Source: Clostridiaceae bacterium (GTDB taxonomy: Bacteria > Bacillota > Clostridia > Peptostreptococcales > T1SED10-28). Taken from it: 38,010 nucleotides of DNA. Location of the stretch: the NCBI GenBank assembly GCA_003553525.1, contig PWEO01000031.1, forward strand, positions 1-38,010, read 5' to 3'. Position 1 is the stretch's first letter; each line of letters starts with the position of its first letter. A model generated the notes under the pieces. That model made no database searches, had not been told where the DNA came from, and saw only the letters and a list, made by a program, of their open reading frames with translations. The position numbers and the translations under genes are program-made. Below are positions 158 through 34,929 of this stretch, piece after piece.

Positions 158-637
158 TTACTTGTGGTAGGGTTCTTTTTTTAAAATTTTAAAACCCCGG
201 TAGATTTGCTCCACTAAAATGAGCCGCATTAATTGATGGGGAAAGGTCATCTTTGAAAAAGAAAGTCTAAGATCTGCTCGCTTTAAAATCGATTCTGAAA
301 GACCCACAGAACCTCCGATAATAAAAACCCAATGACTTTTGCCCCGAAGGCCGTATTCCTCAAAGGACTCCGCCAGTGCTTCCGATGTAAGCATTTTCCC
401 TTTAATGTCCAGCACAATCACCTGAGCACCCTCGGGGATTTTTTTTAGGATTCCCTGACTTTCCTTTTCCTGAATAATTTCCACTTCCCGGGGACTTCCC
501 CCTTCTACGGTTTTCTCATCGGGAACTTCCACCACTTTTACCTTTGCATAGCTCTGTAATCTTTTTAGGTATTCTTCCATACCCATCTTTAGATATTTTT
601 CTTTCAGTTTCCCCACCGCTATAATGTCAATTTTCAT
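158..637 (-). CDS. rlmH: 23S rRNA pseudouridine-1915 N3-methyltransferase RlmH
   Basis: RlmH is a small SPOUT-fold enzyme that uses S-adenosylmethionine to methylate pseudouridine 1915 in helix 69 of 23S rRNA on assembled ribosomes. The 159-residue length is standard for the family. It starts with MKIDIIAVGKLKEKY and keeps the C-terminal knot signature, a glycine-rich GGSVGLSES stretch followed by SFSKMTFPHQLMR and EQIYRGFKI. The start is fixed by an AAGGAG site seven bases upstream. It is the last gene of the minus-strand envelope cluster. In Bacillus subtilis the orthologue also follows walJ and an htrA-type protease, so both sequence and synteny support the call. Confidence 0.96.
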   Translation of the reverse strand: MKIDIIAVGKLKEKYLKMGMEEYLKRLQSYAKVKVVEVPDEKTVEGGSPREVEIIQEKESQGILKKIPEGAQVIVLDIKGKMLTSEALAESFEEYGLRGKSHWVFIIGGSVGLSESILKRADLRLSFSKMTFPHQLMRLILVEQIYRGFKILKKEPYHK

Positions 638-769: not shown

Positions 770-2062
770 TTAAAAGACCACATCAATATCCATTTCATCT
801 TCTCCCCGAACAATGGTAACCGTGGCCCGGTCTCCCGGGGTTAATTTATAAAGTTCCCTTATTAAGGTTCCTCGATTCCGGACTTCCTGACCATTGATTC
901 CAACGATCACGTCCCCGGCCTCAATACCATATTCTTGCGCTACGGAACCGGGATTTATCTCTGCCACATAAAATCCATGGTCTACGGCAAGTTCTTCTCC
1001 CCAGCTACGCTGATACACCTCGGCGTTCAGTCCCTGAACCCCAAGGTATACCGGTCGGAATTCTCCGGTTTCGACGAATTGTTCAATGATGGGTTTCGCC
1101 GTATTAATTGGGATGGCAAAGCCTAAACCTTCACCATTTCGCAATTTGGCGGTGTTGATGCCGATCACCTCGGCATCGGTATTCAGTAAGGGGCCTCCGC
1201 TGTTGCCGGGGTTGATGGATGCATCGGTCTGTATAAAATTATCGATCCCCTCAGCACTGCCTCCTGTCGTTGTAATGGTACGATTCAAACCGCTTACCAC
1301 CCCCTGGGTCAGGGTGCGTTCAAAATCAAGTCCCATGGGATTTCCGATAGCAATGGTAATCTCGCCTACCCGAAGGTTATCGCTGTCTCCTAACGTCGCC
1401 ACGGGGAGATTTTCTTCATCCACTTTGATAATGGCTAAATCCAGGGAAGCTTCATTCCAAAGAACCTCCGCCGGTATTTCCTGACCGTCATGAAGCAGCA
1501 CCATCAGTTCTGTCACCTCGCCGTCACCGATAACGTGGGAGTTTGTGAGAATATACCCCCGTTCATCCACAATCACTCCGGTTCCCAGTCCCGGTCGCTC
1601 CCGTATATCTCCGAAAATTACATCCCGCTCTAAGGTAATTGTGGTGATTCCCACGACGGAAGGCATAGCGTACTCTGCAACTGCGGAATAGATATTCAGA
1701 TCGTTATCATCAACCACAATGCTACGCTCGCCATTTCCAGTTTCCGGCATGGCTTGCTCAATTATATCCGGTAAAAAGTAAAGCCCGCTCCCAAGCACCA
1801 GAGCGCCTCCAAGAACGGCTCCCAGAAGCACCCCGAAAAATCCGATTTTTTTCCGAGGTTCTTTAGGAGTGTTATCTGTTGAAGGTTCTCTCTGTTTAGT
1901 CCCGTCTTTCCGGTTGTTACTGTCTGTAATTTTTTCATCTTCCGGATTCTCTTCTAAGAAATCCTCGGTTGACGAGGGGGCATGATAATAATAGTAATCC
2001 CCTTTGGAGTGCTTTTTTTCCTCATATTCCCCTTGTTGCTTTTCTCGCTCCTTATCCATCAT
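770..2062 (-). CDS. htrA: HtrA/DegP-family membrane-anchored serine protease with PDZ domain
   Basis: This is an envelope quality-control protease of family S1C. The N-terminal ~70 residues are charged and probably cytoplasmic, followed by one membrane segment at about 73-97, which puts the protease outside. The catalytic triad is visible as H176 (TNSHV), D208 (SLDLA) and S288 (GNSGGP). One PDZ domain fills about 340-430. The length of 430 is usual for Gram-positive HtrA with a single PDZ. AGGAGGG lies just upstream of two consecutive ATG codons, so the start may be either one. It follows walJ by about 54 bases, as htrC follows walJ in Bacillus. The paralogue name (htrA, htrB or htrC) cannot be assigned. 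Confidence 0.95.
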   Translation of the reverse strand: MMDKEREKQQGEYEEKKHSKGDYYYYHAPSSTEDFLEENPEDEKITDSNNRKDGTKQREPSTDNTPKEPRKKIGFFGVLLGAVLGGALVLGSGLYFLPDIIEQAMPETGNGERSIVVDDNDLNIYSAVAEYAMPSVVGITTITLERDVIFGDIRERPGLGTGVIVDERGYILTNSHVIGDGEVTELMVLLHDGQEIPAEVLWNEASLDLAIIKVDEENLPVATLGDSDNLRVGEITIAIGNPMGLDFERTLTQGVVSGLNRTITTTGGSAEGIDNFIQTDASINPGNSGGPLLNTDAEVIGINTAKLRNGEGLGFAIPINTAKPIIEQFVETGEFRPVYLGVQGLNAEVYQRSWGEELAVDHGFYVAEINPGSVAQEYGIEAGDVIVGINGQEVRNRGTLIRELYKLTPGDRATVTIVRGEDEMDIDVVF

Positions 2063-2116: not shown

Positions 2117-2917
2117 CTAGCTTTTATTAAATTCATATACCCGCCCAATGCGGTTTCTAAAAGCAACATCCAGTTTTATTTTACCGGTTTCCAGAAGCTT
2201 TCTTTCCTGAAGTTTTCCTTGAATAGTGGACAGAGCCAGCTCCGGAAAATTATTTTCCTCACTTAAATGGGCCAATATGAAATTTTCAACGTTATTTTCC
2301 GCTAAATAGCAAATACAGTCTCCCGCCGCATCATTGGAAAGATGTCCCTGATCCGATAGGATCCTTCTTTTTAAAGAATAGGGATACCTGCCGGATTTTA
2401 AAACTTCCACATCATGGTTCGCCTCCAGAACTACAAGATCCGAGCCCTTTATTTCCTCCAGAATTTCCGGTGTTATGCATCCGATATCCGTGGCGATACT
2501 GATTTTTTCATTTTGCCCTGAAACCGTAAAGCCTACGGATTCCGCCGCATCATGGGACGTTTTATAGGGTTTGACTTTTAAGCTTCCCATAGAAAATATT
2601 TCATTGGTTGTAAAGATTTTTCGGTTTTTTTCTGACACCTTTCCGATTTTTTCTTCCATTGCCTCCCAAGTTCCCTGATTGGCATAAACCGGAATATCAT
2701 ACCTTCTTGAAAGAATTCCCGCTCCCTTAATATGATCAATATGTTCGTGGGATATTAAAATACCTGCTAATGTGCGGGGATCAATATCAACTTCTCCCAG
2801 CCTTTTTTCAATTTGTTTCCCACTGAGGCCCGCGTCCACTAAAAATCGCTGTTCTCCATCGGAAAAAGCATAACTGTTCCCGGCACTGCCGCTGACTAAT
2901 GAGCAAAATTTTATCAA
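2117..2917 (-). CDS. walJ: MBL-fold metallohydrolase WalJ/YycJ
   Basis: This is a metallo-beta-lactamase-fold protein of 266 residues. The metal-binding motif HEHIDH is near residues 57-62 (SHEHIDHIKGAG), with further ligands in the DIG and ANHD segments. YycJ/WalJ proteins have 5'-to-3' exonuclease-type activity and have been linked to mismatch repair and to coordination of wall synthesis with replication. The biochemical role here is inferred from the family. The start is TTG, supported by AAGGAGGG seven bases upstream. It sits between murA and htrA, matching the walJ-htrC-rlmH order of Bacillus, but the other wal genes (walK, walH, walI) are absent. Confidence 0.92.
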   Translation of the reverse strand: MIKFCSLVSGSAGNSYAFSDGEQRFLVDAGLSGKQIEKRLGEVDIDPRTLAGILISHEHIDHIKGAGILSRRYDIPVYANQGTWEAMEEKIGKVSEKNRKIFTTNEIFSMGSLKVKPYKTSHDAAESVGFTVSGQNEKISIATDIGCITPEILEEIKGSDLVVLEANHDVEVLKSGRYPYSLKRRILSDQGHLSNDAAGDCICYLAENNVENFILAHLSEENNFPELALSTIQGKLQERKLLETGKIKLDVAFRNRIGRVYEFNKS

Positions 2918-2955: not shown

Positions 2956-4227
2956 TTATTTGTCAGCTTCTTTATCCTCTGCAAGCTCAATTTTTGCCCC
3001 CAGGTTCTGCAGCTTTTCTTCAATTCGATCATAGCCCCGTAAAATATGTTCCACCTCGTAGATTTCCGTAGTCCCCTTTGTACTGAGAGCTGCAATGATC
3101 AACGCTGCCCCCGCCCGGAGATCCGAAGCCTTAACCGTCGCCGGAGATAATTTTTTCACCCCTTCAATGATGGCCACTTTGCCTTCCACACGAATCGAAG
3201 CTCCCATGCGCTTTAGCTCATTAACATGCTTAAATCGGCCTTCAAAGATATTTTCAGTAATGGACCCTGTTCCCTCGGAAATCGCCAGGAGGCTGGACAT
3301 CGGTTGTTGCAGATCCGTAGGAAATCCGGGATAAACCAGGGTTTTGATATCCGCACTTTTTGTCCGTTTGGAAGCTTTCACTCGGATTTCATCACCATTT
3401 TCATCGATGGTTACATCCATTTCTATTAATTTAGCCGTAATCGACTCCAAGTGTTTCGGTATCACGTTTTTAATTAAAACCTCTCCCCGGGTTGCGGCTG
3501 CCGCAATCATGTAGGTACCCGCTTCGATCTGGTCGGGGATAATAGCGTGCTCACAGCCGCCCAGTTTCTTTACTCCTTGGATTTTAATCGTATCGGTTCC
3601 TGCCCCTTTCACCTTGGCTCCCATGGCGTTTAGAAAGTTGGCGACATCCACAATATGGGGCTCTTTTGCGGCATTCTCAATAATTGTCTGTCCTTTGGCT
3701 TTTACCGCCGCCAGCATGATATTAATGGTTGCACCGACACTAACCACATCCAAGTATATTTTTGCCCCTTTGAGCTCTCGAGCTTGTACCGAGATCATTC
3801 CCTGCTCAATTTTCACTTTGGCCCCTAAGGCTTCAAAGCCTTTAATATGCTGATCAATCGGTCTGGATCCGATATGACAGCCTCCGGGATAGGCCACCTT
3901 GGCTTTATGAAACCGACCAAGGCCTGCCCCTAAAAAGTAATAAGATGCCCTGAGGCCACTGGCCATATCATGTTCCGCCTTACATTCCTTCATTTTTGCC
4001 GGTTCAATGCTTACGGTATTATTACCTAAGGGAATAACCGTTGCATTCATAGACTCCAGTATTTTTAAGAGCGTTCGTGTATCACTAATATTGGGCAGGT
4101 TTTCAATCACTACTTTTCCTTCGGCTAAAATACTTGCGGGTAAAATTGCCACCGCTGCGTTTTTAAAACCGCTGATTTCCACTTCCCCTTTTAGTTTTTT
4201 ACCGCCTTGTATAATAAATTTATTCAT
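2956..4227 (-). CDS. murA: UDP-N-acetylglucosamine 1-carboxyvinyltransferase MurA
   Basis: MurA catalyses the first committed step of peptidoglycan synthesis, transferring enolpyruvate from PEP to UDP-GlcNAc in the cytoplasm. The family start [16 protein letters not shown] is present, with KNA near residue 22 and the catalytic cysteine in [10 protein letters not shown] (C117 from the ATG). That cysteine is the residue fosfomycin alkylates, so sensitivity would be expected. An in-frame GTG lies nine bases further upstream (4236). No good ribosome site decides between them, and I chose the ATG by family fit. Neighbours are a WalR-like regulator upstream and walJ downstream. Firmicutes often carry two murA copies; which one this is cannot be told here. 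Confidence 0.95.
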
Positions 4228-4292
4228 TATGTTCACTGATTAATATCAGCTGTCACCACCTTTTAGTTTTTCCTTATAACATTTCCATTCTA

Positions 4293-5048
4293 TCACTTTT
4301 TCAGAGTTATTTCTACAGAAGATGGACTCCGGGGCCCCTCGTCAATATCTCTATTTTGAAAATAATAGCCCAATCCTCTTTTTGTCAGTAGGTGCTTTGG
4401 TTTATTGGAATTATCTTCGATTTTTTCCCTAATTCGTCGAACGGTTACGTCCACGGTTCGAATATCACAGTACTGCTCTTGTCGCTCTCCATACCCCCAT
4501 ACCTTGTTTAACAGTTCTTTTCTGGAGAAAATATGGTTTTCCTTTGTGAGTAAATACCTTAACAACTGATACTCCCGCAGACTTAATTGCAAGGGTTGTT
4601 GTTTTTTATAAATTTCATTTCTCCTGGGGTTGTAGTGAAAAACCTTTCCGCTTTGTTTTTTATTTTTTATGGAATTCAATAAATGCTGTTCTCTTCGAAG
4701 ATGGGTTTTAACCCGGGCAACAAGTTCATCCCTATGATAAGGGATCTCTAAGTAATCAACAACACCCATTTCCAGGATTTTAACCTTTATGGCTACTCTC
4801 TTTTCTTCGCTCAAAACCACTAAGGGAGTCCGTGGCCTTCGATCGATGCATTGTGCAATAATTTCTTCAAATTCCGGGAAATTCCACCCTTCCAGGATAA
4901 TAATACTCGGACTGACTGTTGCTAGGTAGGGAACAATAAGTTCTTTTTTCATACAAAATTGCACATGATAGCCTTCCTGCTCAAAACGTTGTAAGAGCTT
5001 TGACGGAAAAAAGTCTCCTTTTTTTATAAGCAACAGTCTCTCAGTCAT
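4293..5048 (-). CDS. Atypical WalR-like response regulator (OmpR/PhoB family) with degenerate receiver
   Basis: The protein has 251 residues. The C-terminal winged helix (about 135-232) is intact and strongly WalR-like, including KVWGYG, DIRTVDVTVRRIREKIED and TKRGLGYYFQN. The N-terminal receiver (about 1-118) keeps the fold pattern but not the chemistry. The acidic pair after strand 1 is K9-K10, the phosphoacceptor position reads E53 (IIILEGW) and the conserved lysine before proline is I102 (LEIPY); S80 remains. It is therefore probably not phosphorylated by a classical histidine kinase, and none is encoded nearby. The position beside murA, walJ and htrA matches that of walR in Bacillus. Its targets are unknown; cell-wall genes are a reasonable guess. 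Confidence 0.88.
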   Translation of the reverse strand: MTERLLLIKKGDFFPSKLLQRFEQEGYHVQFCMKKELIVPYLATVSPSIIILEGWNFPEFEEIIAQCIDRRPRTPLVVLSEEKRVAIKVKILEMGVVDYLEIPYHRDELVARVKTHLRREQHLLNSIKNKKQSGKVFHYNPRRNEIYKKQQPLQLSLREYQLLRYLLTKENHIFSRKELLNKVWGYGERQEQYCDIRTVDVTVRRIREKIEDNSNKPKHLLTKRGLGYYFQNRDIDEGPRSPSSVEITLKK

Positions 5049-5089: not shown

Positions 5090-5135
5090 ATTATCCAGGA
5101 AATCTTTCCTTTTGTCCAGGCTTTCTTGAAAGCCT
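5090..5135 (-). promoter_or_regulatory. Promoter of the WalR-like regulator with two palindromes
   Basis: On the minus strand a -35-like TGGACA (5118-5113) is followed after 17 bases by a -10-like GATAAT (5095-5090). The spacer holds the inverted repeat AGGAAATCTTTCCT (5097-5110). A longer perfect palindrome, AGGCTTTCTTGAAAGCCT (5118-5135), abuts the -35. The promoter call is from consensus only, and the palindromes look like possible operators. Confidence 0.55.
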
Positions 5136-5161: not shown

Positions 5162-5194
5162 AAAAAAAAAGGAATAGCGGCTATGCTATTCCTT
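5162..5194 (-). terminator. Rho-independent terminator after the M23 peptidase gene
   Basis: Read on the minus strand, the arms AAGGAATAGC (from 5194) and GCTATTCCTT (to 5169) form a 10-bp perfect stem with a short loop, followed by a run of nine T (5170-5162). It separates the M23 gene from the downstream regulator. Confidence 0.9.
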
Positions 5195-5230: not shown

Positions 5231-6769
5231 TTAATAATTTACGAAATTTAAGGGGTTGACGGGCTGACCATTTCTTCGGACTTCAAAATGAAGATGGGGA
5301 CCGGTACTTCTACCTGTACTGCCCATGGCACCGATTCGTGCTCCTTTAACCACCCGGTCTCCCCGACTTACATTAATGGAGTTTAAATGGGCATAATAGG
5401 TTTGATAGCCATTTTCATGATTAATAATCACCAGGTTTCCATAGCTTCCCCGGTATCCTGCAAATTCTATTCTTCCTGCATCAGCAGAGCTTACCGGTGT
5501 GCCTGTGGGTCCTGCAACATCAATTCCGTTATGCATCCTTCCCCATCGGGTTCCGAATCCCGAGGTCAATCGCCCTCGCGTTGGGCTGCTAAAAGATCCT
5601 GTTGCAACGGTTGTCGGTCGTTTTGCTGTTCCCTGGGCCACAATTCGTGTAACCGGCTCCGAAAGAATTTTTTCTTCCTCTATTTCCATATCCACTTTTC
5701 GACCGTTTTCCCGAATAACATATCCCGTGATTTCACGCTCTCCCTGGGCTCCTTGCTGAGTGATTTTTCGGTCCCCTTCATATAGAGAGTCGGTGTTATT
5801 ATATTCCGTTTCAAAATCAATTTCTTCCCTATACTCTACATACTCTACGGTTCGAACGGTGACATAGGGCTTTGGTACAATAAGATTCAACTCATCACCA
5901 ATGCTGATCATGTGAACATCGGCCAAATGGCTATTGGCTTTTTCTATATCTTCTGCGGTCAGACCGTACTGTTTCGCAATTTCCGAAATTGTATCGCCTT
6001 CTGCTACGGTATGGACCTTCTCTTCATCGGTCCCTTTTTGTAAAATCTTCAAAGCGTTTTCCATCTCTACAATGTCACCCAAGGGAACCAAAGCCTCTTG
6101 AATGTCCACTTCTTCATTAAACTCAACGGTTTCGTATTCCTTGTCTTCTGTGATATACTCCCCTTTGATTTTTTCCAGGAGCTCTTGGGCTTCTTTCTTA
6201 CTTCGAAGATGCACCAGTTCTTCGTCTTCAATATAAATAGCGTAGGCCTCTACATTATAATCAATGCTGGCTAATATTCTTCTCTCAATAACCGATAAAT
6301 CCGTCAGGGGTGTTTCCTTTTCTTTAAATTCCCCTTCTGTAAAAGAGATTCCTTCATCCTCTACCACTATATTTTCCTGATATTGTTCCCGAAGATCTTT
6401 TTCAATATCTTCCACCATTTGCTGAACAATCTCCCGATTCTCAACCACTCCGATTTCCTGGTCATCGATGCTTACCCTATAGCCTTCATAGGTGGACTCG
6501 AGTATGGGTACCCCTTCACTGCTAAGGGTAAGCCCCACTACAAGTAATGCGGATAAACCGATTCCAAGCACCGTTCCTCCCACTTTCGGAAGTCGACGCT
6601 CCTTTGCATTTAACTTAATTTTTCCCTGCTCTTTTATGCTTACTATGTAATTTTTAAGGGTTTTTTGTTTTTTCTGAAGGTTCATGGTTGTGATTTTTTT
6701 CTGCAGCCATGCACTGCTTTTTCCGATGTGACCTTTGCCATGTTGTATTAATTTTTGGAAATAACTCAT
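5231..6769 (-). CDS. Membrane-anchored M23 metallopeptidase with LysM and G5 domains
   Basis: This is a probable peptidoglycan endopeptidase of 512 residues. A basic cytoplasmic head (1-62) precedes one membrane segment (about 63-85). An uncharacterised extracellular stretch (about 86-250) is followed by LysM (about 252-298, HTVAEGDTISEIAKQYGL), G5 (about 303-380) and a C-terminal LytM/M23 domain (about 395-512). The zinc-site residues are all present: H413 and D417 (HNGID), H461 (YYAHL) and H492/H494 (HLHFEV). This suggests an active enzyme. The start has AGAGGTG upstream. It has its own promoter and terminator. Its closeness to a WalR-like regulator is suggestive because WalR regulons often include such hydrolases, but I found no WalR-type box upstream. 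Confidence 0.93.
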   Translation of the reverse strand: MSYFQKLIQHGKGHIGKSSAWLQKKITTMNLQKKQKTLKNYIVSIKEQGKIKLNAKERRLPKVGGTVLGIGLSALLVVGLTLSSEGVPILESTYEGYRVSIDDQEIGVVENREIVQQMVEDIEKDLREQYQENIVVEDEGISFTEGEFKEKETPLTDLSVIERRILASIDYNVEAYAIYIEDEELVHLRSKKEAQELLEKIKGEYITEDKEYETVEFNEEVDIQEALVPLGDIVEMENALKILQKGTDEEKVHTVAEGDTISEIAKQYGLTAEDIEKANSHLADVHMISIGDELNLIVPKPYVTVRTVEYVEYREEIDFETEYNNTDSLYEGDRKITQQGAQGEREITGYVIRENGRKVDMEIEEEKILSEPVTRIVAQGTAKRPTTVATGSFSSPTRGRLTSGFGTRWGRMHNGIDVAGPTGTPVSSADAGRIEFAGYRGSYGNLVIINHENGYQTYYAHLNSINVSRGDRVVKGARIGAMGSTGRSTGPHLHFEVRRNGQPVNPLNFVNY

Positions 6770-34856: not shown

Positions 34857-34929
34857 TTTCCACATTAACCTGTTAATTATATGTTATTATATTGTTAATA
34901 AGTTTTAAGGCTTTTGAAGCCTGTTAGTA

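Follow-up and report, generated by a model that had tools for sequence, protein, structure and literature searches.

The WalRK two-component system has been described as common to all Firmicutes and as essential in every species studied (PMC9210968). Within the OmpR family, ChxR, HP1043 and CmrT provide precedents for regulators that form intrinsic dimers (PMC12632262, PMC12548384). A literature search returned nothing on point on an atypical WalR or on the absence of WalKR in Clostridia. Here we describe a WalR-derived regulator with a pseudo-receiver from the Clostridiaceae bacterium assembly GCA_003553525.1 (genome G000), encoded on contig PWEO01000031.1, of which positions 1 to 38,010 are called the window below. 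It appears to be the last WalR left in its lineage, an orphan with no spare copy.

Results

The regulator is encoded by an uninterrupted open reading frame of 251 amino acids that starts with ATG and runs from 5048 to 4293 on the minus strand, where all features of the locus given below also lie. The product (4293..5048) comprises a receiver (residues ~1-121; 4686..5048), a linker (122-150), a winged helix (151-232; 4353..4598) and a C-terminal extension (233-251). A sigma-A-type promoter, TGGACA-17-GATAAT, precedes the gene (5090..5118) and is also present at the orthologue in genome G003; its spacer contains an imperfect GGAAA/TTTCC inverted repeat, kept in G003, which is a possible operator. 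Further upstream, an intrinsic terminator (5169..5194) separates the regulator from an M23 peptidase gene, and a recognisable stem is present in each of the four genomes that have this region assembled. At the other end the probable murA promoter, TAGAAA-17-TAGAAT (4287..4315), overlaps the last codons and the stop of the regulator and is also found in G002, a genome without the regulator. The C-terminal tail VEITLKK (4296-4316) is conserved and overlaps this probable promoter, so its conservation need not mean protein function.

The surroundings of the gene are those of walR. The M23 peptidase, which carries LysM and G5 domains (5231..6769), is the upstream neighbour here and in canonical walR loci; directly downstream follow murA (2956..4236), walJ with its metallo-beta-lactamase fold (2117..2917), htrA (770..2062) and rlmH (158..637). 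In G015 and G052, two genomes of family f11 in the same order, the arrangement is M23-walR-walK-walH-walI-murA-walJ-htrA-rlmH, with murA after walI, and G010 has the same arrangement minus murA. The window order (M23, regulator, murA, walJ, htrA, rlmH) equals that of G015 and G052 minus walK-walH-walI. The initial annotation had recognised the walR position from murA, walJ, htrA and rlmH and had reported walK, walH and walI as missing; both statements hold, none of the three genes being present at the regulator locus in the window. A horizontal origin of the regulator is disfavoured, because the gene order is that of the f11 loci minus three genes.

Phylogenetic placement points the same way. 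A tree of 58 OmpR-family regulators puts the long branch formed by the gene and its G003 orthologue within the WalR clade (100/99), and a tree of the DNA-binding domain only returns this placement (100/94); long branches dominate the tree built from receivers alone, which was not used for placing the gene within WalR. Clade and locus together indicate that the regulator is a WalR orthologue by descent. Its best NCBIfam model is YycF/WalR (NF040534), at 133.8 bits against an equivalog cut-off of 340, which is not reached.

Neither WalK nor YycI was found in the whole window genome. Apart from the regulator, the best YycF match in the genome (244 bits) is at C210, beside pstSCAB and phoU, and the best HK_WalK match (387 bits against a cut-off of 725) is the PhoR of this pst locus. 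The C210 response regulator and kinase were rejected as a canonical WalRK; lying in a pstSCAB-phoU locus and grouping with PhoP-type sequences, this pair is PhoPR. The search for a second, canonical walRK that had been proposed with the initial annotation thus came back empty, with PhoPR as the nearest pair. That annotation had spoken of a duplicated or converted WalR. Duplication was rejected, with no canonical copy elsewhere in the genome or the family, and conversion stands: the gene is the sole WalR, sits at the walR locus and groups in the WalR clade.

Among the candidates scored, the YycF model at E 1e-90 was matched in none of the six genomes of family f1, for which completeness is 99% in the window genome, 100% in G002 and 63-80% in three of the other four. 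YycI was likewise found in none of the f1 genomes and is present in three WalR-bearing controls. Across the order, WalR at E 1e-90 occurs in at least 166 of 394 genomes, a lower bound with at most seven candidates scored per genome. Loss or strong divergence of WalR is thus not confined to family f1. More than half of the order's sampled genomes are without WalR at E 1e-90, including several at 99-100% completeness, which conflicts with the description of WalRK as universal in Firmicutes; in one genome without WalR at this threshold, G030 (L077), walJ and rlmH are still adjacent.

For the receiver, Pfam Response_reg (PF00072) gives 23.6 bits, under the cut-off of 30.2, and the domain is still alignable with WalR over the full receiver length. 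Aligning the regulator with 31 canonical WalRs from its order gave the pocket residues. The acidic pair is K9 K10, as opposed to E/D-D in canonical WalRs (second position D in 31/31); the phospho-acceptor is E53, against D in all 31; the pocket Thr is S80, against T in 31/31; and the conserved pocket Lys is I102, against K in every one of the 31. Only the Ser is tolerated among these five changes. The Lys-Lys pair, E53 and I102 had each been called in the initial annotation and are confirmed by the alignment, which restores no aspartate at the acceptor site. All five residues are altered identically in the G003 orthologue, so that the changes, shared at 66% identity, reflect neither chance nor sequencing error, and the lost residues are conserved in a relative, a check that the annotation had suggested. 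With its acceptor Asp replaced and other pocket residues lost, the regulator would be of the aspartate-less or pseudo-receiver type. Because the receiver is without acceptor, acidic pair and Lys, a histidine kinase should be unable to run it in the usual way, and the phosphorylation-free action put forward in the annotation would follow from the loss of the pocket.

It had also been suggested that the glutamate may mimic phosphate. E53 would then hold the receiver active, like an engineered D-to-E WalR: WalR D54E has served as a constitutively active variant in C. difficile (PMC9210968), Glu is the replacement seen most often in aspartate-less receivers, at 26% (PMC4395418), and E53 is common to the G000 and G003 orthologues. 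Such a role is doubtful here because the Lys partner of the Glu is gone; the usual partners are all missing, the pocket Lys being Ile and the acidic pair Lys-Lys. Glu is also not decisive in comparable proteins, since E53A in CmrT was without substantial effect while K102A had one (PMC12548384), and DNA binding by ChxR survives replacement of the Glu (PMC4395418). We regard a natural phosphomimic as unlikely, and this part of the initial annotation finds weak support.

Outside the pocket, retention is uneven. The regulator keeps 20 of the 52 receiver residues that are invariant in canonical WalRs, against 34 of 42 in the DNA-binding domain (P 5e-5), and all 20 of these receiver residues are also retained in G003, the two receivers being 60% identical. 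The alpha4-beta5-alpha5 dimer face was defined from KdpE and PhoB (PMC4773095, PMC4888885). Seven of its eight charged residues are retained (P 0.003, for a set that was based on the literature but fixed after the alignment had been seen), namely K88, E93, D98, E108, R112, K114 and R118/R119; the set used R120, and the residue corresponding to KdpE Arg118 is R121, likewise retained. The one lost is WalR D99, a salt-bridge partner, which is V97 in the regulator. The phosphorylation pocket was thus lost, and the dimer face and the DNA-binding half were retained. A single-sequence AlphaFold2 model of the regulator had a mean pLDDT of 44, too low for a fold search.

A remodelled receiver could instead sense an input other than phosphate, through a ligand, a partner or redox state, for which the three cysteines C32, C67 and C194 would be candidates. 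All three are common to G003 and occupy positions where canonical WalRs have other residues (A at 0.94 for C32, K at 0.94 for C67, an invariant G for C194), and RitR, a redox switch derived from CovR, works with a linker Cys (PMC5965902). None of the three cysteines is in the linker, however, no partner gene adjoins the regulator, and two orthologues are too few to show constraint on the cysteines. Control of this kind seems improbable to us.

The winged helix is conserved, as the initial annotation had it. Pfam Trans_reg_C (PF00486) matches the C terminus with 75.6 bits (cut-off 26.2), its closest counterparts among solved structures are the DNA-binding domains of YycF, VicR and WalR, and the segment DIRTVDVTVRRIREKIED is retained. 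Immediately N-terminal to the recognition helix are a four-residue insertion, GERQ, and a Gly-to-Cys change (Cys194), both also in G003. The insertion sits near the RNA-polymerase-contacting loop of the OmpR/PhoB family, and the two changes may modify interactions with RNA polymerase or DNA. Between G000 and G003, dN (Nei-Gojobori; compared in place of the ratio, dS being near or at saturation) is 0.305 for the receiver, 0.39 for the linker and 0.066 for the DNA-binding domain, and 0.062 for murA, 0.042 for walJ, 0.067 for rlmH and 0.082 for htrA. The DNA-binding domain is therefore under purifying selection, constrained like the neighbouring housekeeping genes.

The WalR box of B. subtilis is TGTWAH-N5-TGTWAH. 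Exact boxes are not enriched in the window genome (16 against 14 for a reversed-pattern control) and number 8 against 10 for the reversed control in G003; in G010, which has WalR, there are 55 against 19. Intergenic boxes in G010 precede envelope proteins (SLH, AMIN, NAGPA, SLT, 3D); among those of the window genome none stands in front of a recognised wall hydrolase. Pho boxes look similar to the WalR box, and some matches are clearly Pho sites (pstS). As the box is not enriched in the genome, the old wall regulon seems to have been lost, and the target set of the regulator has probably changed. Within the window, eight matches with at most one mismatch compare with 6.2 expected, and the only exact boxes are two between dnaA and dnaN. 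At this place tandem TGTTAW repeats are found (TGTTAATTATATGTTATTATATTGTTAA; 34871-34898), with identical strings in G001 and partly in G002 and G003; although they fit the WalR box, they are more likely part of the origin region. Another sequence, TGTTAATTTATTGTTAA (L147 1532-1548, L165 1470-1486), conserved in G000 and G003, precedes a xanthine/uracil permease gene by 182 bp, and an exact WalR-type box also occurs near a permease gene in G001 (C70:8542).

Of the 394 genomes of the order, only G000 and G003 yielded the regulator; in G004 the assembly is broken at the regulator site, where its presence is not scorable. In G001 the contig with the M23 gene continues straight into the murA leader without a regulator, and in G002 about 190 bp lie between M23 and murA, with no gene there. 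A tree of neighbouring proteins joins G000, G003 and G004 (88/95) and leaves G001 and G002 outside, unresolved. Given an ancestral walR in the order, the regulator would have been lost once or twice. A putative relic of its 3' end in G002 was dropped as proof of loss, because the same likeness is expected if the C-terminal extension of the regulator ran into the murA promoter. Absence from G001 and G002, together with the rapid divergence of the receiver and the lack of box enrichment, would fit a walR relic on its way to being lost in the remaining species as well. Against such decay stand intact frames in two species, a DNA-binding domain constrained like murA, a conserved promoter, and the fact that all canonical receiver residues kept in G000 are kept in G003 too; we hold it to be very unlikely.

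Discussion

Our analysis favours, as the probable course, that an orphaned WalR became a kinase-independent, probably constitutively dimerising regulator that is controlled by its own synthesis. The regulator would derive from walR by vertical descent, in a lineage from which walK, walH and walI disappeared. Without a kinase, its receiver would have shed the residues of the phosphorylation pocket, with most of the dimer face and the WalR winged helix retained. The kept dimer face and winged helix suggest unaided dimerisation, as in pseudo-receiver regulators, and DNA would most likely be bound as a dimer without phosphorylation. Activity would be set by the amount made from the regulator's own promoter, together with turnover, and the regulon would differ from that of WalR and probably be smaller. 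Constitutive dimerisation, control by abundance and a changed regulon are what we infer from the combined data. Counting against this reading are the missing enrichment of WalR boxes, the loss of D99, the GERQ insertion, the weak support for a receiver fold (Response_reg score under cut-off, low pLDDT of the single-sequence model) and the number of orthologues, which is two.

The regulator resembles WalR/YycF/VicR in descent, gene order and a winged helix with the same recognition segment, and differs in having no acceptor, acidic pair or Lys, no adjoining WalK, WalH or WalI and no enriched boxes. CmrT of Clostridioides difficile is likewise an OmpR-family regulator with a natural Glu (E53) at the acceptor position and an inferred constitutive dimer; in contrast to the regulator, which has no acidic pair, Lys or adjoining kinase, CmrT has retained Thr, Lys and D9 and acts beside CmrR and a kinase. 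RitR of streptococci is also an orphan derived from a two-component response regulator and has Lys at the second acidic position, but it retains Glu9 and Lys103, carries Asn at the acceptor position and acts via the linker residue Cys128. ChxR and HP1043 are again OmpR-family regulators, and these two dimerise without phosphate; they are not known to derive from WalR.

A broader scenario would see WalRK dismantled stepwise, in that the kinase and its cofactors were lost, the regulator became independent of a kinase and was then lost in the sister genomes, the survivor having acquired both a new regulon and a new input, which may be redox through the three cysteines common to G000 and G003. We consider this full sequence of events rather unlikely.

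If the favoured reading is right, this pseudo-receiver has a traceable origin, with a known ancestor and a known locus. The genus is without WalRK and presents the intermediates side by side: the full locus in relatives, an orphan in two species and no regulator in two others. It would thus offer a natural system for how a pseudo-receiver regulator comes about, how an essential two-component system gets lost and what replaces its work.
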